Source of the DNA: Chitinophagaceae bacterium
Lineage (GTDB): Bacteria > Bacteroidota > Bacteroidia > Chitinophagales > Chitinophagaceae
Direction: 5' to 3'
NCBI GenBank assembly: GCA_004028765.1
Contig: SAIX01000037.1
Span: forward strand, 1 to 64,000
DNA length: 64,000 bases
Part shown: in pieces, positions 45,077 to 60,107 of the stretch
Layout of the letters: every line of letters begins with the position of its first letter
How positions within the stretch are numbered: the stretch's first letter is position 1
Position numbers and translations under genes: made by a program
The notes under the pieces: model-generated
Database searches by the model: none
Seen by the model: only the letters and a program-made list of their open reading frames with translations
Told to the model about the DNA's origin: nothing

Positions 45077-45122
45077 CAAAACTATTCCCGTTTTTGCCGG
45101 TTTGCAATCACATAAATGTGTG
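45077..45122 (-). promoter_or_regulatory. Shared operator and -7 box of the 72-residue exported protein gene
   Basis: On the minus strand the operator CACACATTTATGTGATTG starts at plus 45122; 24 bases after its ATGTG comes the -7 box TAGTTTTG (plus 45077-45084). Same layout as at 46046, 46827, 47653, 52314 and 60062. Confidence 0.75.
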
Positions 45123-45147
45123 AAATGCCGGTTTTTGCAGGTTTGAT

Positions 45148-45175
45148 GCAAAAAACCCGGAATAATCCGGGTTTT
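45148..45175 (-). terminator. Rho-independent terminator of the YD-type lipoprotein gene
   Basis: The hairpin AAAACCCGGA (45152-45161) / TCCGGGTTTT (45166-45175), loop ATAA, followed by T residues on the minus strand, 26 bases after the stop at 45202. Confidence 0.85.
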
Positions 45176-45201
45176 ACGATAAAGGCAATCTATGTTGAGG
45201 A

Positions 45202-46023
45202 CTAATAGTAGAATCGGGCATTCTCGACCTGATCGGGGAAGCCGCTGGTTTTGGTGGTGGTTTTCCGGGTGAGGGGAGCACCATCATTGTCGTATGTATA
45301 GGTATGAATCACGGTTTCTTCCAGCGCACCATTCATATCATAATGCAGTTCCGAAAGCGGGTTATTGGGTATCAGGCTTTCGAGCGGCATAAATGGATTG
45401 TTTTCAAAAATGGCTGAAGTATTGGGTTGGGTGTCGTACTGATCGATCAGGTAATCATTGCTCTTTTCCAGCACACCGGTATTGGTGTTGCGGTAATAAA
45501 GGCTCATTTTTTTCAGGTTTCCATTGGCATAATATTCCTGGCCGTACCGCATAGTAGGGGTGGAAGAAACTGTGCCGCCTGGCAAACGATGGTAACCGTC
45601 TGTACGAACCAGTTTACCATTGGCATATGTGTATTCGTAAAATGCCACGAGGTTACCAGCTGCATACACTTCGGTTTTTACCAGTTGCTGGTTTACATAG
45701 AGGTATTTGAATTTGCTGCCATCACTTCCGCGGAGTTCGGTTGCAAGACCGCCGCTATAGAACATATTGTACACAATATGATCGGGCGTGCCCTGGGAGT
45801 AAGCAATATGCACCGTAATGGTATTAATGGTGCCGTTGCTGTTATAGGTCATGGACTGGTAACTGCCGCCATCGTATTCAATTTTGGCAAGTTTTTTTGT
45901 GCCTCCGGGTTGCGGGGCAGGGTCGGGTGTTACCACAGAATCCTTGGAACAGGCTACCAGTACCAGTGAAAGAAACAAGGCAATCACAATATTTTTCTTT
46001 GTTAGCAGGTTGTAAAAAATCAT
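45202..46023 (-). CDS. YD/RHS-like repeat lipoprotein, paralogue of the gene at 60124
   Basis: 273 residues. The lipoprotein signal ends at the lipobox LVLVAC; a Pro-rich linker (VTPDPAPQPGG) precedes a beta-rich body of short YxxNGxL-type units (MTYNSNGTINTI, YTYANGKLVRTDGY, YYANGNLKKMSLYY), resembling YD-repeat proteins. The C-terminus, GFPDQVENARFYY, is almost the same as in the paralogue (GFPDTQAEAKFHY), and both share YDTxPNTxxxxENxPFxP. It should sit on the cell surface or in the periplasm. The upstream region has the shared operator with a TAGGTTTG box. Function unknown. Confidence 0.85.
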   Translation of the reverse strand: MIFYNLLTKKNIVIALFLSLVLVACSKDSVVTPDPAPQPGGTKKLAKIEYDGGSYQSMTYNSNGTINTITVHIAYSQGTPDHIVYNMFYSGGLATELRGSDGSKFKYLYVNQQLVKTEVYAAGNLVAFYEYTYANGKLVRTDGYHRLPGGTVSSTPTMRYGQEYYANGNLKKMSLYYRNTNTGVLEKSNDYLIDQYDTQPNTSAIFENNPFMPLESLIPNNPLSELHYDMNGALEETVIHTYTYDNDGAPLTRKTTTKTSGFPDQVENARFYY

Positions 46024-46045
46024 CTTCTGTTATTTTAATACAGCA

Positions 46046-46091
46046 CAAACCTACAACAGCTGTTTCCCGCTTTCAATCACATGAAAATGTG
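46046..46091 (-). promoter_or_regulatory. Shared operator and -7 box of the YD-type lipoprotein gene
   Basis: Minus-strand operator CACATTTTCATGTGATTG, then TAGGTTTG (plus 46046-46053) 24 bases after ATGTG. A 25-base block around the operator (46074-46098) is identical to 46855-46879 in front of the cytochrome gene. Confidence 0.8.
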
Positions 46092-46160
46092 GTTGGGACG
46101 AATGGGATTTTTAAAGGAGGAGCGGCAGTTTTTATTTGATCGATCCTTCTTTTCTTACAT

Positions 46161-46188
46161 AAAAAATCCCTTCAGATACTGAAGGGAT
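46161..46188 (-). terminator. Rho-independent terminator of the cytochrome c gene
   Basis: The hairpin ATCCCTTCAG (46166-46175) / CTGAAGGGAT (46179-46188) with loop ATA is followed on the minus strand by a T run, 22 bases after the stop codon. Confidence 0.88.
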
Positions 46189-46210
46189 CTTGAATATACA
46201 CAACAGGATA

Positions 46211-46804
46211 TTATTTGATTTCCGCCAGTGGTACAGGATTGGGCACAGCATTGTGTACCGGCTTGATGGTTTTCAGGTATGCAAAAATGGATCGGATATC
46301 TTCATCCGTCATTTTAGCAAGATTAAACCAGGGCATGGGCGGCAGCAAGGGGCGGTTGCCTGCAAGCCCTTTTGATTTTCCTTCGCGTATGGCACGGAAA
46401 AAATTCTCTTCCTTCCAGTTTCCTAACCCGGTTGAATCGGGTGTAAGATTGGCTGCATAGGAAATACCCCATGGACCTACTGCTGCGGTAAGATCGGGCG
46501 CAAATAAAGCCCATCCTTTCTGAACAGATTTGGTATCGATCCCGGGCAGCTTGCCATCTTTCTGAAAACCGGAGAGCCGTAGTTCTGTGATGAGCTCGGG
46601 ACCATTGGGGCCCATTTTTTTGGGTGAATGACAATCATCACAACCAGCGGTTTGTACAAGGTATTCGCCGCGTGCCACGCGGATAGCAGCAGAATCTTTT
46701 TTCTCTGCCGATGCAGTTTCTTTTCCTGTATTTCCGGTACAGGCAATAATTGCCACAGATGATGCAAAGGCAATAGCAGCCAGTGTATACATTTTCTTCT
46801 TCAT
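46211..46804 (-). CDS. Lipoprotein cytochrome c, monoheme
   Basis: 197 residues. The signal ends at the lipobox-like VAIIAC; the heme c attachment site is AGCDDCHSPKK, near residue 55, and a probable axial Met lies in PLLPPMPWFNLAKMTDEDI, a usual class I cytochrome ending. The fold resembles the c-type domains of sorbitol/alcohol dehydrogenase cytochrome subunits. It likely carries electrons at the periplasmic side. It has the shared operator upstream, so it is probably induced together with the lipoproteins and the two-component genes. A second ATG at codon 5 gives nearly the same product. Confidence 0.9.
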   Translation of the reverse strand: MKKKMYTLAAIAFASSVAIIACTGNTGKETASAEKKDSAAIRVARGEYLVQTAGCDDCHSPKKMGPNGPELITELRLSGFQKDGKLPGIDTKSVQKGWALFAPDLTAAVGPWGISYAANLTPDSTGLGNWKEENFFRAIREGKSKGLAGNRPLLPPMPWFNLAKMTDEDIRSIFAYLKTIKPVHNAVPNPVPLAEIK

Positions 46805-46826
46805 GAGTTGTTATTTTATGAGGCAG

Positions 46827-46872
46827 CAAACCTAACAAGCTTATCAGGCGGGAGCAATCACATGAAAATGTG
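46827..46872 (-). promoter_or_regulatory. Shared operator and -7 box of the cytochrome c gene
   Basis: Minus-strand operator CACATTTTCATGTGATTG (plus 46859-46872 core) and TAGGTTTG (plus 46827-46834), 24 bases apart. Confidence 0.8.
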
Positions 46873-46881
46873 GTTGGGATA

Positions 46882-46925
46882 AGCGGTAAAAGCTGAAGGC
46901 TGAACGCAGAACACTTATTCAGTAA
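46882..46925 (+). repeat. Heptanucleotide array (GCTGAAy family)
   Basis: Plus strand units AGCTGAA, GGCTGAA, CGCAGAA, CACTTAT, TCAGTAA from 46891, with a leading AGCGGTA. It sits just upstream of the cytochrome operator, in the gap to the response-regulator gene. Confidence 0.65.
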
Positions 46926-47000
46926 CACAGCATAAAATTTTCAGGGAAGTTTTTACTTAGTGCTGTTGTAAATACAGTATTGTATTAATGCTGGCAGCTG

Positions 47001-47633
47001 TTAAACGAGTTTGTCTTTAAAAGCTTTGGCCACTGCTTCGCTTTTGCTGTTGACATGCAGTTTTTCGTAGATCTTTTTGATATGACTTCTTACCGTATCA
47101 ATGGCTATAAACATTTCGCTTGCGATCATTTTGTAACTGTATCCTTCCACCAGGAACTGGAGTACCTGTTTTTCACGTTCGGAAAGATTGTAATCTTCAC
47201 CGCGTTCGTTGTTCATCGATGAAAACATTTTCAACACCTGTGTGGCGATGCTGGCTGTCATGGGCGCGCCCCCGCTTTGGGCTTCGGCAATATATTCCAG
47301 CAGTTTGGTGGGCGGCGTTTTCTTCAACACATACCCATTGGCGCCGTTGCTGATTGCCTGAAAAACATTTTTATTGTCATCGAAAACAGTAAGCATGAGA
47401 ATTTTTACCTCATCGTTTACTGCGCGTATTTTTTTCAATCCTTCGATACCATTGATCCCGGGCATATCAATATCCATCAGTATCACATCCGGTTTCCAGG
47501 CAGCCACTTCTTCCACCACATTGTTACAGTTTTTAAATGCAGCCAAAACTTCAAACCCGTCGGATCCGTTGATGAGCATGGTTAGTCCTTCACGCAGCTG
47601 GGGGTTGTCTTCGTAAATCAACAGTTTCGTCAT
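47001..47633 (-). CDS. NarL/FixJ-family response regulator, candidate regulator of the shared operator
   Basis: 210 residues. The receiver domain has the acidic residues in LIYEDNPQLREG, the phospho-Asp in VILMDIDMPGING and the Lys in YVLKKTPP. The C-terminal LuxR-type helix-turn-helix is LSEREKQVLQFLVEGYSYK followed by IAIDTVRSHIKKIYEKL. LuxR-type regulators bind short inverted repeats, usually as activators. Its own promoter has the shared operator (47685-47698), consistent with autoregulation, and the nearest kinase, at 48836, belongs to the HisKA_3 class that pairs with this family. The pairing is inferred from class and position. Confidence 0.92.
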   Translation of the reverse strand: MTKLLIYEDNPQLREGLTMLINGSDGFEVLAAFKNCNNVVEEVAAWKPDVILMDIDMPGINGIEGLKKIRAVNDEVKILMLTVFDDNKNVFQAISNGANGYVLKKTPPTKLLEYIAEAQSGGAPMTASIATQVLKMFSSMNNERGEDYNLSEREKQVLQFLVEGYSYKMIASEMFIAIDTVRSHIKKIYEKLHVNSKSEAVAKAFKDKLV

Positions 47634-47652
47634 TACAGGTTTTTTAACCGGT

Positions 47653-47698
47653 CAAAATTAAACATAGCGGTATTTTTTATCAATCGCATAAATATGTT
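47653..47698 (-). promoter_or_regulatory. Shared operator and -7 box of the response regulator gene
   Basis: Minus strand ACATATTTATGCGATTG and, 24 bases after ATGCG, TAATTTTG (plus 47653-47660). One base of each palindrome arm deviates from the consensus, so this site may be weaker. Confidence 0.75.
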
Positions 47699-47716
47699 AT
47701 CTCCATACTTTCTTTC

Positions 47717-48823
47717 TCAAAATCCCCGCCCTCCGGTGGCCAGGCGGTAGAAGCCGGGCAGCCATTTCCTGGTCAGTGCCCCTATTCCCACACAAAAGAA
47801 AAAAACCAATGCAGGGGCCAGCAGGTAGGTGATCAACCGGTAATTGGGTATATCACCGATATAGTGATACATCAAACGTGTAAAGTATACCACCAGCGGC
47901 GCATGCAACCCGAAAATAAAAAAAGAAAATGCCGACAGCGAAACAAACCAGGGCTGGCGCATACAGAATTTTACCAGCCTGTCTGCACCGAACCAAACCG
48001 CAAGTATCCCTGATAAAACAGCCACATCGTGCAGGATGTTCAGTGTTACAAAAGTTAAATGATTGGCGGGTTCCAGCTCAAACGCCATAAAGGTTTTGAT
48101 AACGCTGAAACCGATAAAGAGCAGCCATGAGATATAAAGGCTCAGCCATTTCGGTTTCCGTTCAAGGTTGAACCCTGTTTTTTGTAACCATACGCCCAGC
48201 GAAAAAAAGAATAAACCACGGCCATCAAAAACAAAAAAGCCGAGTTCGAGTATCCACATCAAAAATGTTACCCCGAACCATACCGCTGCAAAATTTTTAA
48301 GGCACCACCTGATCAGCGGATAAACGAGGTTGGTAATAAACAATGCAAGAATAAACCATAGCTGGAATGAAATGGGTGCGAATAGCCAGCGTGTAAAAAT
48401 GCCGGGCCAGCCAATTTCACGATAGGGCCTGTCATCACCCATCTGGTCAAGTTTTGCATCGAGCACGGCTTGTGCAGTAACCGGGAATTGTTGCCACAGG
48501 TACGTGATCAGCAAACCAACCGCACTCCATACCAGGTATGGTACCACCAATGTGCGGGCCCTTTTCCCGATCAGTGTTTTGTAAGGCTGGTCATCTTTCA
48601 TTGCATATATATAGCCTGATATGATAAAAAGCAGGGGTATGCGGAAACGCAGCACACCATTGGCCATAAAGTATTCGAAGAATGTGGTGAATGTGAGGTC
48701 TTCCCGAACCGTAGTAAAAGGTTGCAGGTAGGTTTGGTCAAGGTTATACCCATGCACCGCTAACAGCAATGCGATTGAAACAAAAGTATAGAAACGTAAT
48801 TTCTGGCTGAGGAACCTGCTCAT
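47717..48823 (-). CDS. Acyltransferase 3 family membrane protein
   Basis: 368 residues with about ten hydrophobic helices. The N-terminal segment RFYTFVSIALLLAVHGYN matches the start of acyltransferase-3 (OafA/WecH-like) proteins, in which a His in this helix is catalytic; LLFIISGYIYAMKDD and FQLWFILALFITNLVYPLI are also family-like. Such enzymes add acetyl or succinyl groups to sugars of surface polymers. It begins 12 bases after the sensor kinase stop, so it is co-transcribed with the kinase. Confidence 0.9.
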   Translation of the reverse strand: MSRFLSQKLRFYTFVSIALLLAVHGYNLDQTYLQPFTTVREDLTFTTFFEYFMANGVLRFRIPLLFIISGYIYAMKDDQPYKTLIGKRARTLVVPYLVWSAVGLLITYLWQQFPVTAQAVLDAKLDQMGDDRPYREIGWPGIFTRWLFAPISFQLWFILALFITNLVYPLIRWCLKNFAAVWFGVTFLMWILELGFFVFDGRGLFFFSLGVWLQKTGFNLERKPKWLSLYISWLLFIGFSVIKTFMAFELEPANHLTFVTLNILHDVAVLSGILAVWFGADRLVKFCMRQPWFVSLSAFSFFIFGLHAPLVVYFTRLMYHYIGDIPNYRLITYLLAPALVFFFCVGIGALTRKWLPGFYRLATGGRGF

Positions 48824-48835
48824 AATGATACTGAT

Positions 48836-51800
48836 TTAATGAACAGGGATATTTAATGTTACTTTGGTTCCTTCACCGGGTTTCGATTGTATGTGTACCC
48901 TGCCATGCATGGCATCAGCACGTTTCTGCATATTACCCAAACCATTTCCGCCATCTGCCGTAACCGGATCGAAACCGATTCCGTCGTCCCCAACAATCAG
49001 TACCAGCCTGCTGTTGTGCAAACCCAGTTGTATGGTAACCATGCTAGCTTTGGAATATTTGGCCGCATTGTTCACAGCTTCTTTAAAGACAAGAAAAAAA
49101 TCACGGCGGGCTTCCATTTCCAGCTTAACATCATACACGGCTTCGTCTACCCGAAAGTCAAGTTCAATTTCTTTTGCTTCGAGCACATTCGTTGCAAACT
49201 CACGCATGCGGGCCGTAATTTTCTGTAAAGTATCGTTGCTGGGTTTGATACTCCATACAATATCATCCATGGCTTCCATCATGCGCTGGCTGTTATCGCT
49301 GATCTTACCTAAGTATTCTGTTGTTTTAACCGGATCGGCCTGTATCCTGCTTTTCGCCATTGAACTAAGGATATTGATGGTACTGAGTGTGCTTCCCATA
49401 TCATCATGGAGGTCCCTTGCCACACGGTTACGTATTTTTTCAACAGCCAGCAGCTTGTTCACCCGCAGCCGGTGTACTGCATAAATACAAAGGGCAACCA
49501 CAAAAAACAAAGTACTGATAAACCAGTATGTGCGCCAGAAAGGTGGTTTGATATAAATATGCAGCTGCGTGATCTCCGGCGAGCGTATGCCATCAATATC
49601 TTCACAATACACACTAAAAGTGTAATTGCCCGGCTGCAGGAGTGTATAGTTGATAATGTTCTGCCGGTCGGCTTTTACCCAGTCGTTATCGATGCCCGAC
49701 ATTTTATAATAGTAGGTGAGCTTCTCCTGCTGCAGGTAACTGAGTGAAGAAAAATAAATGCTGAACGTATTCTGGCTGCTGCTGAGCTGTACGCGTGGAA
49801 GGGTTTGCAGCGAATCCACCGACACATAATTGTTCAGCAGTTTAAAGTCGGTGATCACAACATTCCTGGGTGGCCGGGTCTGGAATATGGCCGGTTTAAA
49901 ATAAAGCAATGCATTGTTACCCGTGAACATAACATATCCATCGCTGCTGAAGAGATCCGCTTCTGTCGTAAGGTGCGCCAGTGTAATGCCGTCTTTCCGG
50001 CTGTAAGCTGTTACTTTCTTTGTAGCCGGGTTATAGCGGCAGAGCCCATCGCGCGTGATCATCCACAGATAGCCGTCTTTGTCCATCCGCATGCGGAGTA
50101 TGGAGTTTCCGGGCAATCCATCTTCGTAGGTAAGCCAGCTTACTTTACCGGTATGCAGGCTGATAAAATTGATCGCACCCGCAGAGAATACAATGGTACT
50201 GTCGTTCAGTTGTTCAATATCCTTTCCAAGGTTCTGAAACAGTCTTTCCTCTGCCGGACCTTCCGTGGTATAATGCCTGATCATCAGTTTCGCTTCTGCA
50301 TCCAGTTTGTATATACCATTCCCTTCGCATGCCACCCATAAATTACCATGCGAATCGGGTAGTATTTTATCGATCACCCCAACGAATTTCTGCATCACGG
50401 TAAATTGTTTACCATCATACCTGATCAGCCTTCCCCGAAAAGTTCCAAACCAGATATTTCCTTTTTTGTCTCCTGTAATGTATTTGATGGTTGATCCGTC
50501 GAAAGCGGGGTCGGTGTAAAAGCGGCTGCTTTTTGTAAGCGTATCGTACACGATATAATTGCCCGACTGGCAGCCTATCCAAACTTTTCCATCCGTATGC
50601 TGGTAGATGGCCCATGCCTGGCGAAATTGTATCCACCGCATTTTAGACATGGCGGGCATATTGTTGTATACACCCGCGTCGTACTTGTGAAAAAAGCGGT
50701 CCATCGAAACAATACCCTTTCCCCAGGTACTGAGCCAGTACTGCCCGCCCTTTAACTGGAAAATATCAGTGAATTCGATACCGCCACGTTTGGGTGAAAG
50801 CATCATATTCACTACAGAATAAGTTCCGCTTCCCGGTGTGGTAAAATACAATCCATTGTCAGTCGAAAGCCAGATACTGCCATCATGATCCTCCATGATA
50901 TTGAATACGAAATGAAACTGTATCCCTGTTTCGCTTCCTGCGCCATGTTCATAATAAAAGAAGCGGCGTTCATTTTTATCATAATTATAGAGCGCATTGG
51001 TTCCGTAAGTCCAGAGTAATCCCTGTTTGGTTTCAAAAATGCCGTACTGTTCCGAATAGTCGGGATTGTAATTCAAACCCGCAGTATCAGGTAGTTCTCG
51101 CCCGGTGGAATCAAAACAGAATTTCAGGTTACCCGCTGCCCAGTTAAATACCCAGAACCTCCTCCTGCTGTCTATGAAAATATTTGCCGTTGCAGGTTTT
51201 ACTTTTTTTACATCCAATAACGGGATCTTTTCCGGATTGTATTCGCTGGTAAATGTTTTACCCGATCGTGCATCGTATACGGCCAGCCCTTTGTTACTGC
51301 AGGGAAACCAGAAACGTTGTGTCGGTGTGTCTTCATAAAAACCCGGCGTAGGGATATAGCCTTCGGGGAAGTGAAAATAATTATCCTCCACAAAAGCGTT
51401 TTGTTTTTTGTCGTAATGAAGTATGCCAAAAAGATAAACGGAAAGAAAGATCTCACCCTTGCTGCTGCGCCATAGTTTTGTAGCGGCGCTGCTTCGTTTG
51501 TAGCGTGTTGATTTTACCGGGATACTGGTATAAGAAAGTGTGGAAGTATTAAAAATACCAAAGTCCAGTTTATCACCAAATGCCAGCCACAGGTTACTGC
51601 TGTCGCCAGGAACAATTTGTGTTAATGCCGAAGAAGTGATATGCTTCGACATTTTAGGTGAACGGAACTGGATGAATTTACTGCCATCGAAACGCTGAAG
51701 ACCGTTAGCGGTTCCCACCCATATAAACCCTTTTTTATCCTGGTAGGTGCAATACACCACATTTGACGCAAGACCAGTGGCATCGTCGGTACTGATTCGG

Positions 51801-51877
51801 TTGAATGTAAAGCCCTGCTGCGATTTTACAGCTGTGTACAAGAATACCCACAGTAAAAGAAAGCTGGTCTTTTTCAT
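48836..51877 (-). CDS. Two-component sensor kinase with periplasmic beta-propeller, Y_Y_Y and HisKA_3 domains
   Basis: 1013 residues. After a signal peptide (to about 19) come propeller repeats (GLASNVVYCTYQDKKGFIWV with GTANGLQRFDG, then IWLSTDNGLYFT, VWIGCQSGNYI, IWFGTFRGRLIRYDG), a Y_Y_Y domain at about 690-755 (LTYYYKMSGIDNDWVKAD), a membrane helix near 765-785, then a HisKA_3 domain with phospho-His in RDLHDDMGSTLSTINIL and an ATPase domain with GNGLGNMQKRADAMHG. There is no fused receiver, so it should signal to a separate NarL-type regulator such as the one at 47001. The Bacteroidota relatives sense carbohydrates or other exogenous ligands. It has the shared operator upstream. Confidence 0.95.
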   Translation of the reverse strand: MKKTSFLLLWVFLYTAVKSQQGFTFNRISTDDATGLASNVVYCTYQDKKGFIWVGTANGLQRFDGSKFIQFRSPKMSKHITSSALTQIVPGDSSNLWLAFGDKLDFGIFNTSTLSYTSIPVKSTRYKRSSAATKLWRSSKGEIFLSVYLFGILHYDKKQNAFVEDNYFHFPEGYIPTPGFYEDTPTQRFWFPCSNKGLAVYDARSGKTFTSEYNPEKIPLLDVKKVKPATANIFIDSRRRFWVFNWAAGNLKFCFDSTGRELPDTAGLNYNPDYSEQYGIFETKQGLLWTYGTNALYNYDKNERRFFYYEHGAGSETGIQFHFVFNIMEDHDGSIWLSTDNGLYFTTPGSGTYSVVNMMLSPKRGGIEFTDIFQLKGGQYWLSTWGKGIVSMDRFFHKYDAGVYNNMPAMSKMRWIQFRQAWAIYQHTDGKVWIGCQSGNYIVYDTLTKSSRFYTDPAFDGSTIKYITGDKKGNIWFGTFRGRLIRYDGKQFTVMQKFVGVIDKILPDSHGNLWVACEGNGIYKLDAEAKLMIRHYTTEGPAEERLFQNLGKDIEQLNDSTIVFSAGAINFISLHTGKVSWLTYEDGLPGNSILRMRMDKDGYLWMITRDGLCRYNPATKKVTAYSRKDGITLAHLTTEADLFSSDGYVMFTGNNALLYFKPAIFQTRPPRNVVITDFKLLNNYVSVDSLQTLPRVQLSSSQNTFSIYFSSLSYLQQEKLTYYYKMSGIDNDWVKADRQNIINYTLLQPGNYTFSVYCEDIDGIRSPEITQLHIYIKPPFWRTYWFISTLFFVVALCIYAVHRLRVNKLLAVEKIRNRVARDLHDDMGSTLSTINILSSMAKSRIQADPVKTTEYLGKISDNSQRMMEAMDDIVWSIKPSNDTLQKITARMREFATNVLEAKEIELDFRVDEAVYDVKLEMEARRDFFLVFKEAVNNAAKYSKASMVTIQLGLHNSRLVLIVGDDGIGFDPVTADGGNGLGNMQKRADAMHGRVHIQSKPGEGTKVTLNIPVH

Positions 51878-51893
51878 GCGCAGGGAAGATATT

Positions 51894-51953
51894 CAAAGCT
51901 AAAAACAATTGGGTAACCATGTGTGAGGGCTGGTAAAATCACATATTTATGTG
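51894..51953 (-). promoter_or_regulatory. Shared operator and -7 box of the sensor kinase gene
   Basis: Minus strand CACATAAATATGTGATTT, a perfect palindrome core (plus 51940-51953), and TAGCTTTG (plus 51894-51901). The spacing is 38 rather than 24 bases, so either the promoter is different or the exact start lies elsewhere (a poorer box, TACCCAAT, is at the 24-base position). Confidence 0.6.
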
Positions 51954-51997
51954 GTGAGGCGGGTGTCTAAAACAGTAAACCAGGTTATAAAGGTGTT

Positions 51998-52108
51998 TGT
52001 GTTTCGGTTCAGCATTCACGGATTTGCGGATAGCGGATCCGCGAATTTATACGCACCATTCACCCGAACTTATATTGTTCCCTGTTCGATATTCAATTGT
52101 TCACCATT
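51998..52108 (+). repeat. Degenerate heptanucleotide-type repeats
   Basis: Part of a 500-base region (51878-52380) without a large gene. It includes 7-base steps such as CGGATTT, GCGGATA, GCGGATC and, further on, a TTC recurring about every 7 bases (TTGTTCC, CTGTTCG, ATATTCA, ATTGTTC, ACCATTC). The regularity is imperfect. The rest of the region holds an operator, a terminator hairpin and a possible 53-codon gene, listed separately. Confidence 0.45.
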
Positions 52109-52109
52109 C

Positions 52110-52140
52110 AAAAAAAACGCCCCGCCAGGACTGACAGGGC
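52110..52140 (-). terminator. Rho-independent terminator without an obvious upstream gene
   Basis: On the minus strand a 9-bp stem (GCCCTGTCA with TGGCGGGGC, two G-U pairs) with a 4-base loop is followed by G and eight T residues. No minus-strand gene lies between it and the nifJ terminator at 52705-52734. Confidence 0.65.
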
Positions 52141-52158
52141 ATATTGTAACTGCGTATT

Positions 52159-52320
52159 ATGAAAAAGCAAAGCGCTTTTTTACAGCTCAAAATTGCCGGT
52201 GGCAAAATTTATAAAATACACAGGAATGATGAATGGGAAATAGTTCTGCTTAAGCGGAAAGCGGGCTCACATAAATATGTGGTTTCGCCCAAACCCTTTA
52301 CCAGAAAGCATTTCACATGA
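52159..52320 (+). CDS. Possible small basic protein
   Basis: 53 codons from ATG 52159 to TGA 52318-52320, starting MKKQSAFLQLKIAGGKIYKI and ending PFTRKHFT. The composition (basic, one domain-like strand pattern) is plausible for a small protein, but there is no family match, no clear promoter, and a copy of the shared operator core (52268-52281) lies inside the frame. It could equally be a chance frame. Confidence 0.35.
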   Translation: MKKQSAFLQLKIAGGKIYKIHRNDEWEIVLLKRKAGSHKYVVSPKPFTRKHFT

Positions 52321-52359
52321 TTGTGTGATTGCGTGTTCAGACTGTTGTCTGCAATTTTA
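52314..52359 (+). promoter_or_regulatory. Shared operator and weak -7 box before a small gene
   Basis: Plus strand operator CACATGATTGTGTGATTG at 52314; 24 bases after GTGTG is CAATTTTA (52352-52359), a weaker -7 box. The start codon of the 62-residue frame follows 21 bases later. A second operator core, CACATAAATATGTG, lies at 52268-52281. Confidence 0.65.
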
Positions 52360-52380
52360 CATCACTAAATCATACCTGAT

Positions 52381-52569
52381 ATGAAAGGAAAATACATCAC
52401 CACCTCTTTAATGCTGGCAGTGCTGGCAGGTGGTAAACACGGCATCAGTATTCTTTGTGACGAAACGCAGGCTGTTGTAAGCGATCATAAAACGATCTGG
52501 AGTAAACAGCATCCGGAAAAACAACATCCGGTTACTGCCGGCATTCCTGATGAACTGAAACTGGCCTGA
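52381..52569 (+). CDS. Small protein of the shared-operator group
   Basis: 62 residues. The N-terminus is a short hydrophobic stretch (TTSLMLAVLAGG) after MKGKYI, followed by a polar His/Lys-rich tail (HKTIWSKQHPEKQHPVTAG). The hydrophobic part is short for a signal peptide. No family recognised. Its support is the operator/-7 arrangement upstream and normal codon use. It may be a small membrane or secreted peptide. Confidence 0.55.
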   Translation: MKGKYITTSLMLAVLAGGKHGISILCDETQAVVSDHKTIWSKQHPEKQHPVTAGIPDELKLA

Positions 52570-52596
52570 GTTGTTAGGAGTAAAAAATTCACGATC

Positions 52597-52701: not shown

Positions 52702-52704
52702 TCA

Positions 52705-52734
52705 CAAAAAAGGGGCTCCTGAAGCAATCCCTTT
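52705..52734 (-). terminator. Probable terminator of nifJ
   Basis: On the minus strand AAGGG and GC(T) pair with (A)GC and CCCTT around TTCAGG, followed by TTTTTT. The stem has a small bulge. It could also stop plus-strand reading of the small genes. Confidence 0.6.
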
Positions 52735-52758
52735 ACGGGTCAGTAACCAATCTGCTTG

Positions 52759-55700
52759 CTACAGCGCCTTCAATGCCTGTATCCTGTCCCAGTGCTGCCT
52801 GATACCCTCATTCGCCATTGATAAAAATTCAGTCGCTCTCTCCGGATTGTTATTCCGGATAGTGGCAAACCTGTTCTCATGGTACAGGAATTCATCCAAT
52901 GGTACAGATGGATCTTTGCTGTCGAGTACAAATCTTTGTCCCTGCTCTTTTAACGGGTTAAAGCGGAACAATGGCCAGTACCCGGATTTCACTGCAAGAT
53001 CCTGCTGGTCTAACCCATGGCACATATCATATCCATGCGCAATACAATGGCTGTAAGCAATGATGATAGACGGACCAGGATAAGCTTCTGCTTCAAGAAT
53101 GGTTTTTAAGGCATGTACATCATTCGCGCCCATCGCTATCTGCGCCACGAATGCAGTTCCGTGTGCTATCGCCTGCATGGCAAGGTCTTTTTTGCCGGTT
53201 GTTTTTCCTTTGATAGAGAATTTTGCGCTCGCACCCAGCGGGGAGGATTTTGATTTTTGCCCACCTGTATTGGAATATACTTCTGTATCGAGTACGAGTA
53301 TGTTTACATTCTCCCTGGTTGATAATACATGATCCAGTCCGCTGAAACCAATATCGTAAGCCCAGCCATCGCCACCAACGATCCACATGGATTTGTGTTC
53401 GAGGAAGCCAGCCACCTGCAACAGCAGTTCTGCATTTTCTGTTTTCAAAGAACGCAGCCTTGTTTTTAATGCATCTACATTTTTCCGTTGCTGTATGATC
53501 TCTGCTTCATTCGCTTCCACATTGCTAAGTATAGCATCGGTAAGTTCTGATCCCATTTCTTCGCGGAGTGATTTCAATAAAGCCAAAGCATAACTGCGTT
53601 TCATGTCTGTGGCCAGTTTAATACCGAGCCCGAATTCGGCATTGTCTTCAAAGAGGGAGTTTGCCCAGGCCGGTCCATGGCTCTCACTGTTTTTGCTCCA
53701 GGGTGTTGTCGGTAAATTCCCGCCGAAAATGGAAGAGCAGCCGGTTGCATTGGCAACGATCATCCTGTCGCCGAATAATTGTGTCAATAATTTCAGGTAG
53801 GGTGTTTCTCCGCAACCACTGCATGCGCCGGAGAATTCAAACAGGGGTTCTAACAGTTGAGAACCTTTCACGGTGCTCCTGTTTACACGGGTCCTGTTGA
53901 TATCCGGCAAACCGAGGAAGAAATCCCAGTTGTTTTTTTCGGTTTCCTTCAGCGGCATCACATCCTGCATATTGATGGCTTTATGGCCGGGTTGTGTTTT
54001 GCTTTCAATAGGACAGGCTTCTGCGCAAAGGTTACAGCCAGTACAATCTTCCACTGCCACCTGTAATGTATAGGATTCTGTTTCTTTAAAAAATTCTTTC
54101 CCGATCGGCGCGGTATGCTTAAAGAAATCCGGTGCATTGTTCAGCAGGTCATTGCTGTACACTTTGGGGCGGATGGCAGCATGCGGGCAAACAAAGAAAC
54201 ATTTTCCGCATTGAGAACAGAGGCTGGGATCCCATACCGGAACCTGCTCGGCAATATTCCGCTTTTCAAACCTTGTGGTGGCAGAAGGATACGTGCCATC
54301 TGGCGGAAAAGCACTTACCGGAAGATCGTCACCATCACCGGCAATGATCTTCGCAAGCACATCCTGTACAAAAGCAGGTGCCCGCCCAGAGATAGCGGCA
54401 CCAGAAGCTTTGCTACCAATTGCATAACCGGAATAATCGATCTGTGAAAGGTTCTCGAGTGTTTTATCAACGGCATCATAATTTTTTTGCACCACCGCTT
54501 CTCCTTTACGTCCATAGGTTTTTTTGATCGCTTTCTTGATATAACTGATGGCTTCTTCTTTCGGCATTACATTCGAAATGGCAAAGAAGCAGGTTTGAAG
54601 AATGGAGTTGATGCGTGAACCCATACCCGTTTCCCTGGCCACTTTTGATGCATTGATCACGTAAAGTTTCAATTTTTTTTCAATGATCTCCTCCTGGATC
54701 GTGCGCGGAAGTTTACACCAAACCTCTTCCATGGGATAAGGGGCATTGAGCAGGAATGTGGCACCTTTCTGTACATGCTTCAGTATATCATATTTTTCGA
54801 GGTACTGAAAATGATGACAAGCCACAAAATTTGCAGAATTGATTAGGTAGGTGGATTGAATAGGTTTGTGGCTGAACCGAAGATGCGAAACCGTAAGAGA
54901 GCCGGATTTTTTTGAGTCGTACACAAAATATCCCTGCACATGATTGTCGGTTACATCGCCGATGATCTTGATGGTGTTTTTATTCGCACTCACCGTTCCA
55001 TCGGCACCCAATCCAAAAAACAAGCCGCGGAACAGGTGCTGGTCTTCCAGAGAAAAGGTTTTATCGTAAACGAGGCTGCTGTGTGTTACATCATCGTTAA
55101 TACCAACTGTAAATCTTTTTTTCGGATTTTCTTTTTTGAGTTCTTCAAAAACAGCTTTCACCATTCCCGGATTGAATTCTTTGGAAGCCAGCCCGTAACG
55201 GCCGCCGATCACTTTCGGCATATTCCCATCCCAACCGGCATGCAACGCATTGACCACATCCATATACAAGGGTTCACCGATGGCGCCGGTTTCTTTACAA
55301 CGGTCGAGTACCGCAATATTCTTTACAGTTCTGGGAATTGCATCGATGAAATGTTTTATTGAGAACGGCCGATACAAATACACATGCAGGTAACCTGTTT
55401 TTTCTCCTTTGCCGTTGAGATGGTCAACCGTTTCATGTACCGCACCTGCACCGGATCCCATAATGATGATGATATTTTCTGCCTGCGGATGGCCATAGTA
55501 ATCATATAAGCGATACCTGCGGCCTGTGAGTTCTGCAAACTGCTGCATGGTTGCTTCCACAATGGAAGGAACTTTTTGGTGATAGGGATTGCATGCTTCG
55601 CGGCTCTGGAAATATACATCGGGGTTTTGCGCGGTACCCCGGATAAAAGGATTGTCGGGGTTCAATGCACGCTGACGGTGACGCGTCACATCTTTCGGGT

Positions 55701-56334
55701 CGATCATCGCACGGATGGCATCATCAGGGATAATTGTCACTTCATTCAATTCATGTGATGTACGGAAACCATCAAAAATATTGAGGAAGGGAATGCTGGA
55801 ACGGAGTGTTGCCGCAGTGGCGATCATCGCCATATCATGTGCCTGCTGCGGGCTGGTACCAAACAACATTGCGAAACCGGTTGAACGCACGGCCATCACA
55901 TCACTATGATCCCCGAAAATAGAAAGTGCATGGGTGGCCAATGCCCTTGCTGCGATATGAAAAACCGTTGGTGTTAATTCTCCCGCTATCTTGTACATAT
56001 TCGGGATCATCAGTAACAAACCCTGCGAACAGGTAAACGTGGATGCCAATGCGCCGCCCTGTAAAGCGCCGTGTATCGCGCCAGCAGCGCCCGCTTCACT
56101 CTGCATCTCGATCACTTTGGGTATTTCGCCAAAAATATTTTCGCGGTTATCACTGCTCCACTCATCTGCAAATTCGCCCATCGGAGAAGAGGGGGTGATG
56201 GGATAAATGGCACAGACTTCACTCGTTTTATACGCAATATATACCGCGGCTTCGTTACCATCCATTATGGCGGGAGCCGGTTTTTTTTCCGAAACTTCAC
56301 CGGCGGGTTTATCCTGGACAAGGGTATTTTCCAT
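52759..56334 (-). CDS. nifJ: Pyruvate:ferredoxin (flavodoxin) oxidoreductase
   Basis: 1191 residues from ATG 56334 (MENTLVQDKPAG); the 23 codons upstream are not conserved-looking. All domains of the single-chain enzyme are present in order: the alpha-type pyrimidine-binding domain (YKTSEVCAIYPITPSSPMGE), domain II, the gamma domain, a double [4Fe-4S] ferredoxin insert (CSQCGKCFFVCPHAA and CTGCNLCAEACPI), and the C-terminal TPP-binding domain with SGACSGCGETPYLKL, GGDGWAYDIG and DTEVYSNTGGQKS. The enzyme converts pyruvate and CoA to acetyl-CoA, CO2 and reduced ferredoxin. Its presence suggests low-oxygen metabolism. No nitrogenase genes are nearby despite the name. Confidence 0.96.
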   Translation of the reverse strand: MENTLVQDKPAGEVSEKKPAPAIMDGNEAAVYIAYKTSEVCAIYPITPSSPMGEFADEWSSDNRENIFGEIPKVIEMQSEAGAAGAIHGALQGGALASTFTCSQGLLLMIPNMYKIAGELTPTVFHIAARALATHALSIFGDHSDVMAVRSTGFAMLFGTSPQQAHDMAMIATAATLRSSIPFLNIFDGFRTSHELNEVTIIPDDAIRAMIDPKDVTRHRQRALNPDNPFIRGTAQNPDVYFQSREACNPYHQKVPSIVEATMQQFAELTGRRYRLYDYYGHPQAENIIIIMGSGAGAVHETVDHLNGKGEKTGYLHVYLYRPFSIKHFIDAIPRTVKNIAVLDRCKETGAIGEPLYMDVVNALHAGWDGNMPKVIGGRYGLASKEFNPGMVKAVFEELKKENPKKRFTVGINDDVTHSSLVYDKTFSLEDQHLFRGLFFGLGADGTVSANKNTIKIIGDVTDNHVQGYFVYDSKKSGSLTVSHLRFSHKPIQSTYLINSANFVACHHFQYLEKYDILKHVQKGATFLLNAPYPMEEVWCKLPRTIQEEIIEKKLKLYVINASKVARETGMGSRINSILQTCFFAISNVMPKEEAISYIKKAIKKTYGRKGEAVVQKNYDAVDKTLENLSQIDYSGYAIGSKASGAAISGRAPAFVQDVLAKIIAGDGDDLPVSAFPPDGTYPSATTRFEKRNIAEQVPVWDPSLCSQCGKCFFVCPHAAIRPKVYSNDLLNNAPDFFKHTAPIGKEFFKETESYTLQVAVEDCTGCNLCAEACPIESKTQPGHKAINMQDVMPLKETEKNNWDFFLGLPDINRTRVNRSTVKGSQLLEPLFEFSGACSGCGETPYLKLLTQLFGDRMIVANATGCSSIFGGNLPTTPWSKNSESHGPAWANSLFEDNAEFGLGIKLATDMKRSYALALLKSLREEMGSELTDAILSNVEANEAEIIQQRKNVDALKTRLRSLKTENAELLLQVAGFLEHKSMWIVGGDGWAYDIGFSGLDHVLSTRENVNILVLDTEVYSNTGGQKSKSSPLGASAKFSIKGKTTGKKDLAMQAIAHGTAFVAQIAMGANDVHALKTILEAEAYPGPSIIIAYSHCIAHGYDMCHGLDQQDLAVKSGYWPLFRFNPLKEQGQRFVLDSKDPSVPLDEFLYHENRFATIRNNNPERATEFLSMANEGIRQHWDRIQALKAL

Positions 56335-56502
56335 AACGTGAGATTTAGGATGATGATTGAGTATACAAAATACCAATACTCTAAAGCCGGAAAATATGAC
56401 CAATGTCAGTTCGGGATATGATTTTAATGAGGTTTGAAATGCCTTCCGGGCTATGTATACAGCCGCTCATACACTTATCCACTGGGATTGTATGGCTGTT
56501 TT

Positions 56503-56510
56503 TATCTTTA
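56503..56510 (+). promoter_or_regulatory. -7 box before the DUF4440-like gene
   Basis: TATCTTTA lies 23 bases before the GTG start at 56534. No good -33 element is seen. Confidence 0.4.
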
Positions 56511-56533
56511 GAAAAACCCAAAACCAGGACCAG

Positions 56534-57343
56534 GTGAAAAAAATCCTTACCTGTATTTTATTTGTTTCAGTATCGGCCAGTGCACAAAATGCCCTTCAGC
56601 AAATGGTGGCTGCGGAAAAAGCTTTTGCAGCATTTACCGAAAAGCATACAGTAAAGGAAGGGTTTCTATTATATATGGACAGTGCCGGCGTTTTATTCCG
56701 CAACGGCAAAGCGGTTCGTGCAATAGATGTTTTTGCGAAACAACCTGCAACCGCGGGCGTTTTAAACTGGAAGCCCGATTTCGCGGTGATGGGCAGCTCG
56801 GGTGATATGGGTATCAGTTCCGGCCCGTATAGTTTCAGGCAAACAATGAATGATACCGTAGTATCTGCCGGGCATTTTTCTTCTGTGTGGATCCGGAAGG
56901 GAAATGGTGAGTGGAAAAACCGGGTTGACCTGGGTGTGAATTATGATAAAAATATCCCGCAGAACCAGGAGTCCTTTTTTGAAACCCTTTCTGCTGACAA
57001 TACATCCGGAACGATGGTTGCTGATTTTTTTCCTGCAGAGCAAGCCTTTATTGAAGCAGTATCTGCAGGCGACCGGAAAAAAATAATAACAATGCTTACG
57101 GATCATTCGCGATGGTTACTGGATCAATTCGCCCCCTTCGATGGTAAATCGTCAATTGAAAAAGCATTACAGCAATTACCTGCCAACATACAGTTCAGGG
57201 AAAACACGAGGCTTAGATCAGCCGCAGGTGACCTGGTTTGTATTTACGGCTCTGCTGTATCCGGTGATAAAATATCGGCATATATCCATGTATGGGGCTT
57301 ACAGGCAGATGGCTGGAAATTATTACTGCAAACAATCAAATAA
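56534..57343 (+). CDS. Exported protein of the DUF4440/SnoaL-like group, two-domain
   Basis: 269 residues if started at GTG 56534, which gives a clean signal peptide ending at SVSASAQ; the ATG at 56453 would add 27 residues without a signal. The mature part seems to contain two NTF2-like modules: ALQQMVAAEKAFAAFTEK with WIRKGNGEWKNRVDLG, and PAEQAFIEAVSAGDRKKI with HVWGLQADGWKLLLQ. Role unknown. It is convergent with the barrel-like gene at 57349. Confidence 0.8.
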   Translation: MKKILTCILFVSVSASAQNALQQMVAAEKAFAAFTEKHTVKEGFLLYMDSAGVLFRNGKAVRAIDVFAKQPATAGVLNWKPDFAVMGSSGDMGISSGPYSFRQTMNDTVVSAGHFSSVWIRKGNGEWKNRVDLGVNYDKNIPQNQESFFETLSADNTSGTMVADFFPAEQAFIEAVSAGDRKKIITMLTDHSRWLLDQFAPFDGKSSIEKALQQLPANIQFRENTRLRSAAGDLVCIYGSAVSGDKISAYIHVWGLQADGWKLLLQTIK

Positions 57344-57348
57344 GCCTC

Positions 57349-58185
57349 TTACAATTTTACGCCCACGCTTAAGGTCACATAAAACAGGTTTTTTCCTCTT
57401 TCTGAAAGATCGGGTCTTCCTGCAACAGTAATAAGGTTGCGTGGCATCGTATACGCAGGCGTAACAGATGCATTGAATTTTCCGGCAACCCACACCAACG
57501 GTACAGAAAGTTCATAAGACAAAACATTAAACTGCGTAACCTGTTCTGTGGTTTGTTGTGTTACAGGTATACCAAGCACTGATTTGTTTTCAAAATAAGT
57601 GTTTGAAAATTTCTGGGTCCCAAAATAGGCATAGGCAGAGGGATCGATCGCAAAAGCAACTCCGGGCGTCCCGGTTTTGATCAGGAATAAATGATCAAGC
57701 CCGATCGTGGCACCCACATCTGTCTGGTTGCTGAATTTAAGGTCAACACCTGTGTTTATATTTACTATACCATTCAGGTAATTCAGGTTAATACCTGTCT
57801 GCGACTTCAGTGCCGATTGCACCAATATGCTTTTGTCTTTGTACAGGAACTCTGTCAGGAAAATGTTTCCCGAAAAATGTTCTGACTGCGGAAAACGATA
57901 TCCCGCTTCAACAGTGGTACCGGTATAGGTAAGGGGCAGGCTTTTGTTATTGACAAAAATAAAATTACCCTGTACATACAATCCGGTTGAAGACTGAAAA
58001 CCAACCATTGGAAACAAACCGCTGCTTTGCAAACTATCTGTGCGGCCGAAATAATGCAGGGCCGACTGATAATTGACGCTGGCACTTATTTCATTTTTCT
58101 GCGCCTGTTTTTCATTGCTGTTTTGTCCTTTGGAAAAAAACGGCATTGCCAGTATCATTGCGGAAAAGAAAATATGTGTTTTCAT
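57349..58185 (-). CDS. Exported hypothetical protein, probable outer-membrane barrel
   Basis: 278 residues with a signal peptide ending at FFSKGQ. The mature part has regularly spaced amphipathic strands (GLYVQGNFIFVNN, TGTTVEAGYRF, GATIGLDHLFLI, NLFYVTLSVGVKL) and a final Leu, as in small outer-membrane barrels. No family recognised. It follows the Ala-rich protein gene by 59 bases on the same strand and may share its transcript. Confidence 0.78.
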   Translation of the reverse strand: MKTHIFFSAMILAMPFFSKGQNSNEKQAQKNEISASVNYQSALHYFGRTDSLQSSGLFPMVGFQSSTGLYVQGNFIFVNNKSLPLTYTGTTVEAGYRFPQSEHFSGNIFLTEFLYKDKSILVQSALKSQTGINLNYLNGIVNINTGVDLKFSNQTDVGATIGLDHLFLIKTGTPGVAFAIDPSAYAYFGTQKFSNTYFENKSVLGIPVTQQTTEQVTQFNVLSYELSVPLVWVAGKFNASVTPAYTMPRNLITVAGRPDLSERGKNLFYVTLSVGVKL

Positions 58186-58244
58186 ACAGTTGGTTTTTAT
58201 GGTTACTGTTGAAGCGGGATCGTTGTATTTGTTAAAAGAACCCC

Positions 58245-58838
58245 TTATTGTTTTCCTGTTTTTACAGAACCTTTCGCATCAGCTTCTGCTTTCACTTTTA
58301 CTTCCGGTTTTGCTTTCTCTGCTTTTTCCTTCGCTTTTACTGCAGTTTTTTCAGTGGCCTCTTTTGTTTTTTCGGCTCTTTCTTTCGCATCTGATGCCTG
58401 CTCTTTTGCTTCCTGTTTTACTTCTGTCATCGGAAGTGTGGCATTTGCATTTGCATGCACATCGGCCTGTGAAACAGATTGTGCCCTTACCAGGCCTTTT
58501 TCTTCACCGCCGGCATTGCTGTTCATTTCTGCGCTATTGCTGCTTTTTACATCAGCATCAGCACTGGCATCGGCCTTTGTTCCTGATTTTATTTTTTGTG
58601 AAGAATTTACCGCTGCGTTACCGGCTTTTGAAACAGCGGCCGTAGTTGCACTAACGGCTTTACCCGTAGCAACCGTTGCTTTGTTTGTGGCGTTAACAGC
58701 AGCACTGGCTGCTTTTGTAGCATTTACCGTTGCATTGGCTGCTGCTGTAGTGGTGGTGCGTACACCCAATTGTGCATAAGATGACTGGATAAAAAATACG
58801 GAGGCCGCCATTGCTGAAAATTTGATTAGCGTTTTCAT
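58245..58838 (-). CDS. Exported low-complexity Ala/Lys/Glu-rich protein, LEA-like
   Basis: 197 residues. After a signal peptide (to SSYAQ) the chain is low in complexity: a first half of Ala/Thr/Val/Asn units (ATVNATKAASAAVNATNKAT) and a second half of charged helical units (KEQASDAKERAEKTKEATEK, then VKAKEKAEKAKPEVKVKAEA). The second half has the 11-residue rhythm of group 3 late-embryogenesis-abundant and apolipoprotein-like helices. Such proteins can protect membranes or proteins under desiccation or osmotic stress. Because of the bias, similarity searches would be unreliable. Export to the envelope is the firmest inference. Confidence 0.75.
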   Translation of the reverse strand: MKTLIKFSAMAASVFFIQSSYAQLGVRTTTTAAANATVNATKAASAAVNATNKATVATGKAVSATTAAVSKAGNAAVNSSQKIKSGTKADASADADVKSSNSAEMNSNAGGEEKGLVRAQSVSQADVHANANATLPMTEVKQEAKEQASDAKERAEKTKEATEKTAVKAKEKAEKAKPEVKVKAEADAKGSVKTGKQ

Positions 58839-59150
58839 AGTTTTTCGTTTTAGGTTAAGAATGCTTTCTGTTTTTCGTTTTCAATTTGCGTGCCAAACCT
58901 TTTTTGATATACAGGCAGCGATATATAAGAGATTGTTTTTCAAAAACTTTTCCCTCAAAAAAATAGTATTCCCTTTTGGACCCGGTTCCGGAGATGGATT
59001 TTACCCGGGATTTTTTTAAGAGAATTTTTTTAGAAGTATGAAATCCAGATGGCAGAGAAATACGTAAGCGGCCACACGTTTATGCGGTTTTCTGTAAACC
59101 TTTGCATACAGATATTTGTATCATTGGTCTTATACAGAAAACCATATCAG
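58839..59150. other. 312-base intergenic region
   Basis: Divergent upstream region of the LEA-like gene (minus) and the metallo-hydrolase gene (plus). It is A/T-rich with several T runs. I see no gene, no full TTTG-N19-TAnnTTTG promoter and no copy of the shared operator. An open frame from 59049 joins the metallo-hydrolase but is not conserved-looking. Confidence 0.6.
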
Positions 59151-60026
59151 ATGCGGAAAAATAAAATGACCCGAAGAAATTTTTTACGGGCAACAACTGC
59201 TGTAACGGGTGTGTTTGCGATTGCCCGGGGTTTTTCGGAGCCGCTTTATCATCAAAAAAAGAAAGCAATGCGTTTCAGGTTAATCAGGCATGCAACCATT
59301 CTGCTCAGTGCCGGTCCATACAGTTTCCTGGTTGATCCTATGTTATCCATAAAAGAGGCAATGGATCCGGTTGGCAATGCCGCCAACAAATACCGGATAC
59401 CGATGACCGATCTTCCCATTAACGAAACAGAACTGAAAGAAATGCTGTCAGCCGTAGACGCTGTTTTGGTCACACATACACACCGCGACCATTGGGATAC
59501 TGCAGCACAGCAAATGATTGCAAAAGATAAAAAAATATTCTGTCAGCCAGTCGACGAAGAAAAAATCCGTAAACAGGGTTTTACCAATGTAACTGCTATT
59601 TCCGAACATATTACATGGGAGGATGTACAACTGTTCAGGACCGGAGGTCAGCATGGCACAGGAGAAATCGGCAAACAGATGGGGATCGTTTCCGGTTTTG
59701 TAGTAAAATACAAAGATGCTTCCGTTTATATCGCAGGAGATACGGTTTGGTGCAGTGAAGTGGAAAATGCAATTCAGAAATATTCGCCCGGGCACATTAT
59801 TGTGAATGGCGGCGGTGCAAGATTCCTTACCGGTGATCCCATCACTATGACGATAGATGATGTAGCCAAAGTTGCTGATTATACAGAGGCACCCCTCTCT
59901 GTTGTTCATCTCGATACCGTAAACCACTGTTTACAAAAAAGATCTGATTTCCGGGCCTTCGTTACCGAAAAAAGACTGAGTAAAAAAATACAGGTTCCCG
60001 AGGATGGCGAATGGATAGCTGTCTGA
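59151..60026 (+). CDS. Metallo-beta-lactamase-fold hydrolase with Tat-like signal
   Basis: 291 residues from ATG 59151 (MRKNKMTRRNFLRATT); ATG 59166 is the other option. The twin-arginine motif TRRNFLR with a following hydrophobic stretch suggests export in folded form. The MBL metal site is VTHTHRDHWD, with later GGQHGTGEIG, YIAGDTVW and VVHLDTVNH as the remaining ligands, as in the UlaG/YtnP-like branch. Substrate unknown; possible phosphoesterase or lactonase. Confidence 0.85.
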   Translation: MRKNKMTRRNFLRATTAVTGVFAIARGFSEPLYHQKKKAMRFRLIRHATILLSAGPYSFLVDPMLSIKEAMDPVGNAANKYRIPMTDLPINETELKEMLSAVDAVLVTHTHRDHWDTAAQQMIAKDKKIFCQPVDEEKIRKQGFTNVTAISEHITWEDVQLFRTGGQHGTGEIGKQMGIVSGFVVKYKDASVYIAGDTVWCSEVENAIQKYSPGHIIVNGGGARFLTGDPITMTIDDVAKVADYTEAPLSVVHLDTVNHCLQKRSDFRAFVTEKRLSKKIQVPEDGEWIAV

Positions 60027-60061
60027 ACCGTTGATACCGGATTGATTCCTTTCATCACACA

Positions 60062-60107
60062 CACATATTTGTGCGATTGGCAGAGGCCCTGCAGTAAAAC
60101 ATCTTTG
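60062..60107 (+). promoter_or_regulatory. Shared operator and -7 box of the second YD-type lipoprotein gene
   Basis: Plus strand CACATATTTGTGCGATTG starts at 60062; 24 bases after GTGCG is CATCTTTG (60100-60107), 16 bases before the ATG. The site is on the opposite strand and 8 kb beyond the rest of the group, yet keeps the exact spacing. Confidence 0.75.

Follow-up and report, generated by a model that had tools for sequence, protein, structure and literature searches.

A conserved inverted repeat at fixed promoter distances suggests an autoregulated two-component circuit in Bacteroidota

Results

Operator sites and two-component genes

We analysed a window of 64,000 nucleotides at the start of contig 37 (C37; SAIX01000037.1) in the 3.7-Mb draft genome of a Chitinophagaceae bacterium (G000; assembly GCA_004028765.1). 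The window carries the genes of a NarL/FixJ-type response regulator and of a sensor kinase, and in front of these and several neighbouring genes lies an inverted repeat, CACAT-N4-RTGYG, which we propose to be the operator of the regulator (Table 1). A sequence-only reading of the same DNA had listed six such sites with a -7 box each and a seventh site before the kinase gene. All of them are present, and the gene starts named with the six sites coincide with starts of open reading frames (ORFs). At all six sites exactly 24 bases separate the last base of the palindrome from the -7 octamer, while the kinase-gene site, with its core at 51940-51953 on the minus strand and the -7 box TAGCTTTG, has a spacing of 38 bases. 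The list was incomplete, since two further spacing-24 sites had been missed, one before a metallo-hydrolase gene and one before a gene for an HHE hemerythrin-like protein.

The regulator matches PF00072 (90.7 bits) and PF00196 (64.5 bits), each above cut-off, and Asp54 in its MDIDMP motif, presumably the phospho-acceptor, is invariant in 15 of 15 aligned sequences. Its closest solved relatives are chains deposited as VraR (5hev, 7ve6, 4gvp) and NarL (1a04), and it reaches no NCBIfam equivalog cut-off among the 25 families listed (NarL, 145.8 of 250 bits). It groups with regulators of Chitinophagaceae, the nearest genus-named records being Segetibacter and Sediminibacterium, and relatives at 74-88% identity occur in several Bacteroidota families. 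The kinase contains HisKA_3 (PF07730, 41.7 bits) and HATPase_c (PF02518, 53.9 bits) domains and probably forms one operon with the acyltransferase gene that follows it.

The operator is clustered and conserved with its spacing

To distinguish the sites from background we scanned the whole assembly for the core followed by N24 and TANNTTTG, allowing up to two mismatches. Eight of the 12 matches fall into a 24-kb stretch (C37:45077-69444; binomial 1.7e-15), compared to five matches of a reversed control pattern in the whole genome. The bare 18-mer with at most one mismatch gives 19 oriented matches, 10 on contig 37, where two palindromes are counted on both strands, and nine elsewhere, none of which belongs to the 12 configured sites. 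It is the promoter-configured sites that cluster at the locus, and the looser 18-mers found elsewhere lack the geometry; the random genomic scatter that the sequence-only reading had named as refuting its model was not observed. A perfect 18-mer outside the configured set, at G000:C57:4888-4905, is followed by what appears by eye to be a terminator-like hairpin. Within the window the loose 18-mer (three mismatches) occurs 35 times, against a shuffle mean of 22, a count reached by 2 of 100 shuffles; this is only mildly above chance, and the fixed spacing carries the case for real sites.

Upstream regions of orthologues were compared at 80 regulator loci, kept from a larger set of relatives fetched from named genomes. 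Both site and spacing are retained before the regulator gene in many other Bacteroidota. The core (at most one mismatch, within 120 bp upstream) is found at 53 of the 80 loci, with the -7 box at a spacing of 24 in 40, of 23 in six and at neither in seven; any other spacing is seen at one locus at most. Core and box together, within two mismatches, precede 55 of 80 regulators, compared to 46 of 1007 further ORFs of these loci (true targets included), and the reversed pattern precedes none of the 80. Site-bearing loci belong to Chitinophagaceae, Cyclobacteriaceae, Flavobacteriaceae, Prolixibacteraceae, Sphingobacteriaceae and Hymenobacteraceae. In a tree of 210 regulator residues the Cyclobacteriaceae are nested in a group that also holds Chitinophagaceae (98/95), next to a group of Flavobacteriaceae and Prolixibacteraceae (90/87), with a join of only 84/77; this hints at horizontal transfer, which one short gene cannot settle. 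At L185:10001-10629 the regulator frame is apparently broken by a frameshift in a metagenome-assembled genome, possibly an assembly error.

The kinase-gene spacing is conserved as well. Among 39 kinase relatives a site within two mismatches lies at 38-41 bases in 21 and at 23-25 bases in five, and of the 27 sites listed at spacings of 36-42, 18 lead into a kinase gene, all 18 starting with CACATA.

Operator shape and promoter geometry

Among the 237 exact cores found over 82 loci, a spacing of 24 bases to the -7 box occurs 72 times and one of 23 bases 13 times, with a second peak at 38-40 bases (8, 11 and 9; 28 in total) over a background of about two per spacing. The arms of 142 spacing-24 sites continue into A/G-T-T-G (75/24, 92, 86 and 78%), whereas 25 sites of the second class share RTT but have T instead of G at the next base. 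Conservation of the arms is partly by construction, as sites were chosen within one mismatch, and so is the leading CACATA of the kinase-class set in this comparison; the flanks are free of this bias. The sequence-only reading had counted ATTG as operator. A conserved right-arm flank does exist, but probably not all four bases belong to the operator, because the TTG lies 20 bases upstream of the -7 box, at the position of the -33 consensus element of Bacteroidota promoters. RTT is probably part of the operator, with TTG doubling as the -33 element.

According to a Flavobacterium study, the sigma-A -7 box spans -12 to -5 (PMC9723704). The operator centre would therefore lie near -43.5 for spacing 24 and near -58.5 for the kinase class. 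These positions are close to those of class II and class I activators in E. coli.

Motif and regulator co-occur across genomes

We further compared 147 family genomes, scoring the regulator as present at 64% identity or more and the motif in its promoter configuration with at most one mismatch. The motif is found in 13 of 15 regulator-bearing genomes and in 5 of 132 others (Fisher 6e-13, relatedness ignored). The search pattern was derived from the window, so that G000 counts itself; without it 12 of 14 regulator-bearing genomes carry the motif. The reversed motif gives five matches in four genomes. Two of the genomes scored as having the motif but no regulator, G117 and G124, harbour a diverged relative with its own operator. 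Four members of this sample (G002, G102, G064 and G131) appear to be in the locus set as well (L178, L180, L200 and L169), which makes the two comparisons partly dependent.

In a phylum-wide sample 10 of 198 genomes match the motif and none matches the reversed control. Eight of these lie outside the family with a single one-mismatch site each, in one case (L253) beside a propeller gene; no regulator was found within the 3-kb loci, the regulator search of the family comparison not having been run on this sample. Some of these matches are probably due to chance or to other systems.

Predicted targets are mostly exported

From 158 configured sites 26 were dropped for lack of an ATG-initiated ORF of at least 50 amino acids within 130 bases. 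The remaining 132 precede 40 regulators, two kinases and 90 other genes, 78 of them non-redundant. Based on a simple hydrophobicity rule rather than SignalP, 50 of 61 targets of at least 120 amino acids are exported-like, compared to 362 of 1004 background ORFs (p 4e-14), as are 13 of 17 smaller targets. The regulon had been described as of unknown function, which the export bias narrows. For the family scan six cut, short or doubtful ORFs that were kept in the export test were excluded. The 72 scanned targets include DUF2807 (9), beta-lactamase-type serine hydrolases (3), OmpA (3), cytochrome c (3), S41 peptidases (2), sigma-70 region 2 (Sigma70_r2; 2), a single TonB-dependent-receptor-like barrel and a single 3-keto-disaccharide hydrolase. 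No SusC/SusD-type pair is seen among the 25 commonest of the 42 families in these targets, and a glycan-utilisation regulon was rejected. DUF2807 was not found by Pfam in the ten window proteins scanned. According to a study of Psp systems, the Toastrack domain unifies DUF4097, DUF2154 and DUF2807 and is found in Lia/Psp envelope-stress systems (PMC11237479). Two related targets (L186:11795-12124 and L195:10704-11267), each with an operator, resemble ECF sigma factors, which suggests a regulatory cascade in some species.

Kinase relatives are present at 39 of 44 regulator loci, the acyltransferase at 11, the cytochrome c at 13 and the YD-type protein at 12; G066 (L145) has another acyltransferase under its own operator. 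DUF2807 relatives at regulator loci have a site within two mismatches in 5 of 5 cases. Since a relative of a target need not be a target itself, the site stays with the regulator, and often with the kinase, whereas the remaining targets differ from species to species.

Small exported-type proteins recur beside the regulator

A survey of ORFs of at least 40 amino acids within 2.6 kb downstream of the regulator revealed a small exported-type ORF (54-81 amino acids) with an operator within three mismatches at 11 of 36 loci. The 72-residue protein of the window and three relatives share a signal-like start, a hypervariable middle and a C-terminal motif, S-[IL]-L-[ED]-G-[ST]-[AT]-R, that ends in W; pairwise dN/dS is 0.23-0.49, and dS is high (1.0-2.2) in every pair. 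Three Algoriphagus proteins belong to another family, in which KTTQTCG is conserved and dN/dS is 0.36-0.88. In Cyclobacteriaceae, small exported-type ORFs directly follow the regulator at L182:10832-11002, L184, L188, L189 and L190; three share KTTQTCG and the rest is hypervariable. Most of the Chitinophagaceae proteins end in F, W or Y, a comparison of C-termini made by eye and after the fact. The 62-residue protein has a tblastn relative in L162 and, by eye, a similar ORF at L067:12029.

Other genes of the locus

The alignment of the YD-type proteins comprises seven rows. The Tat-like signal of the metallo-hydrolase scores 17.5 bits with Pfam TAT_signal, under the cut-off, and 17.5 bits with TIGR01409, above its cut-off of 16.7. 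Inside the cluster, a pyruvate:ferredoxin oxidoreductase gene (52759-56334, minus strand; POR_N, POR, EKR and PFOR_II) shows by eye no upstream operator and was not found at the loci of 44 relatives. A further minus-strand gene (58245-58838) encodes an exported-type, alanine/lysine-rich, low-complexity protein of 197 amino acids without a Pfam match.

Table 1. Genes and putative operator-promoter regions at the locus (window coordinates unless prefixed by C37)
Feature	Position	Strand	Remarks
NarL/FixJ-type response regulator, proposed operator binder	47001..47633	-	Response_reg and GerE (Pfam)
Sensor kinase (Reg_prop propeller, Y_Y_Y, HisKA_3, HATPase_c)	48836..51877	-	Pfam
Acyl_transf_3 membrane acyltransferase	47717..48823	-	Pfam; 12 bases past kinase gene
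Cytochrome c, predicted target	46211..46804	-	Cytochrom_C; lipoprotein-like signal by eye
YD-type lipoprotein, predicted target	45202..46023	-	Clusters with 60124-60903 and five other members of target set
Small exported-type protein, 72 aa, conserved C-terminal motif, predicted target	44842..45060	-	Relatives in L163, L164, L171 with same operator
Small exported-type protein, 62 aa, predicted target	52381..52569	+	Divergent from kinase gene
Metallo-beta-lactamase-fold hydrolase, Tat-like signal, predicted target	59151..60026	+	Lactamase_B_2, 44.8 bits
Second YD-type lipoprotein, predicted target	60124..60903	+	YD_repeat_2x; 32% identity to 45202-46023
Operator and promoter, 72-aa gene, spacing 24	45077..45122	-	Pattern scans
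Operator and promoter, YD-type lipoprotein gene, spacing 24	46046..46091	-	Pattern scans
Operator and promoter, cytochrome c gene, spacing 24	46827..46872	-	Pattern scans
Operator and promoter, regulator gene, spacing 24	47653..47698	-	Pattern scans
Operator and promoter, kinase-acyltransferase genes, spacing 38	51894..51953	-	Same class at 21/39 kinase relatives
Operator and promoter, 62-aa gene, spacing 24	52314..52359	+	Pattern scans
Operator and promoter, metallo-hydrolase gene, spacing 24	59073..59118	+	Pattern scans; additional to earlier list
Operator and promoter, second YD-type gene, spacing 24	60062..60107	+	Pattern scans
Operator and promoter, HHE hemerythrin-like gene, spacing 24	C37:69399-69444	+	5.4 kb past window end
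Palindrome without assigned promoter	52268..52281	.	Pattern scans

Discussion

The sites, their spacings, their conservation, their co-occurrence with the regulator and the export bias of the genes behind them are direct observations on the DNA. Together they point to an autoregulated two-component system whose regulator would activate its own gene, the kinase gene and an envelope regulon, a model that we consider probable as a whole. The kinase would sense an envelope or extracellular signal via its exported propeller and phosphorylate the regulator, a dimer of which would then bind CACAT-N4-ATGYG-RTT. With its centre near -43.5, the dimer would abut the -33 element and aid sigma-A RNA polymerase like a class II activator, both at the gene of the regulator itself and at effector genes whose products are mostly exported. 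With its centre near -58.5 (spacing about 39), it would act on the kinase gene as an activator in a class I-like position. The outcome would be a positive feedback turning on a fast-evolving envelope regulon. Autoregulation by the linked pair, as first proposed from the window, is supported by the sites conserved before the regulator gene and by the conserved kinase spacing. The assignment of the operator to the linked regulator is strong, and binding by this protein is very likely. Activation rather than repression is likely, judging from the promoter geometry, while a role in envelope state or envelope stress is suggested only tentatively.

Several points weigh against this model. Both binding and direction of control are what we infer from sequence patterns. 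The core is absent (at one mismatch within 120 bp) from 27 of the 80 regulator loci, mostly distant relatives but also L168, L186-L188 and L193; the seven core-bearing loci with no box at 23-24 bases deviate as well, and 13 of 39 kinase promoters have no site within two mismatches. G146 and G106 possess the regulator with only two-mismatch sites, located before the regulator gene, and G030, G063 and G130 carry the motif with no regulator shown beside it. As the genomes are related, the p-values overstate independence. A site (two mismatches, 320 bp upstream, operon members not considered) precedes no more than 4 of the 13 cytochrome c relatives and 5 of the 12 YD relatives. Finally, with a cytochrome c and an HHE protein the targets here are not a classic envelope-stress set.

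The same sites could serve repression that is relieved by phosphorylation of the regulator. A protein bound at the right arm, which directly adjoins the -33 element, could keep polymerase out, but the constant position near -43.5 and the second class near -58.5 fit activators. This argument is not decisive, the region downstream of the -7 box not having been searched for sites, and we regard repression as unlikely. It is still less probable that an unlinked transcription factor binds these sites and also controls the regulator gene. The three genomes that carry the motif with no regulator shown beside it would fit such a factor, and binding by the linked regulator is itself a prediction; however, the motif tracks the regulator over the 147 family genomes, precedes it in several families of the phylum, and the diverged regulators of G117 and G124 have sites of their own. 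CRP and FNR bind the consensus sites TGTGA-N6-TCACA and TTGAT-N4-ATCAA. A regulon of this type might be suspected from the cytochrome c among the targets and from the right arm plus flank, TGTGATTG; yet the arms point outward here (CACAT-N4-ATGTG) and the linkage is to a NarL-type regulator, which makes this explanation hardly credible, and it was rejected because of the orientation of the arms. Chance palindromes beside ordinary promoters, to which the mild excess of the loose 18-mer in the window might be attributed, are practically ruled out by the spacing-constrained scans, the genomic clustering and the conservation across species.

The autoregulated circuit might also respond to a signal of its own making, in that the small exported proteins could be precursors of secreted peptides sensed by the propeller kinase, giving a peptide-autoinduced envelope switch. 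We keep this reading because small exported proteins that are driven by the operator and share short conserved motifs are found repeatedly next to the regulator, although we consider it rather improbable. A search of the open-access literature for peptide signalling in Bacteroidetes yielded nothing relevant by title among the matches listed. Peptide-controlled two-component systems are known from Firmicutes. The likeness lies in small secreted-type proteins under the operator of the system beside the regulator in some genomes, whereas the association of a secreted-type ORF with the system is not universal here.

The locus thus holds a real, conserved two-component circuit, and its kind is known. 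No description of its operator was found in the open-access literature searched; searches on the kinase/regulator type or on the operator returned nothing describing either among the matches listed, and those on Bacteroidota promoters and on two-component regulons of Chitinophaga gave general leads. For an uncharacterised Bacteroidota regulator family this provides the likely operator, a pair of fixed promoter geometries and a list of candidate targets, so that regulons become readable from sequence in many genomes. To our knowledge the activation rules of Bacteroidota sigma-A promoters are little studied, and the circuit would show by example how an activator is placed with respect to their -33 and -7 elements. 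With a constant regulator and operator and changing exported targets, it would also be a good system for studying regulon turnover.

The regulator shares its receiver (REC) and GerE domains with NarL and VraR. Hybrid two-component glycan sensors of Bacteroidota combine Reg_prop and Y_Y_Y, as does the kinase here; in contrast to them the regulator is a separate protein, and the kinase has no receiver or helix-turn-helix match. Lia systems pair a NarL-type regulator with a HisKA_3-type kinase, as found here. Further parallels to LiaFSR/CesSR of Firmicutes are the two-component pair, an inverted-repeat operator with a short A/T tract on one side, and Toastrack proteins (DUF2807) among the targets in relatives (9 of 72 scanned). 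Streptococcus mutans LiaR is reported to require an A4 stretch next to its inverted repeat and not to bind its own promoter (PMC4447274), and the helix-turn-helix of LiaR is called winged in the Psp study (PMC11237479). The A4 stretch possibly parallels the RTT flank. The differences are the operator sequence, CACAT-N4-ATGYG compared to TCAGHCTnnAGDCTGA for CesR (PMC4447274), the exported propeller of the kinase, and the result that no LiaF-type domain was found by Pfam in the ten window proteins scanned. On the best reading, the circuit would work like LiaSR without being a member of that system.

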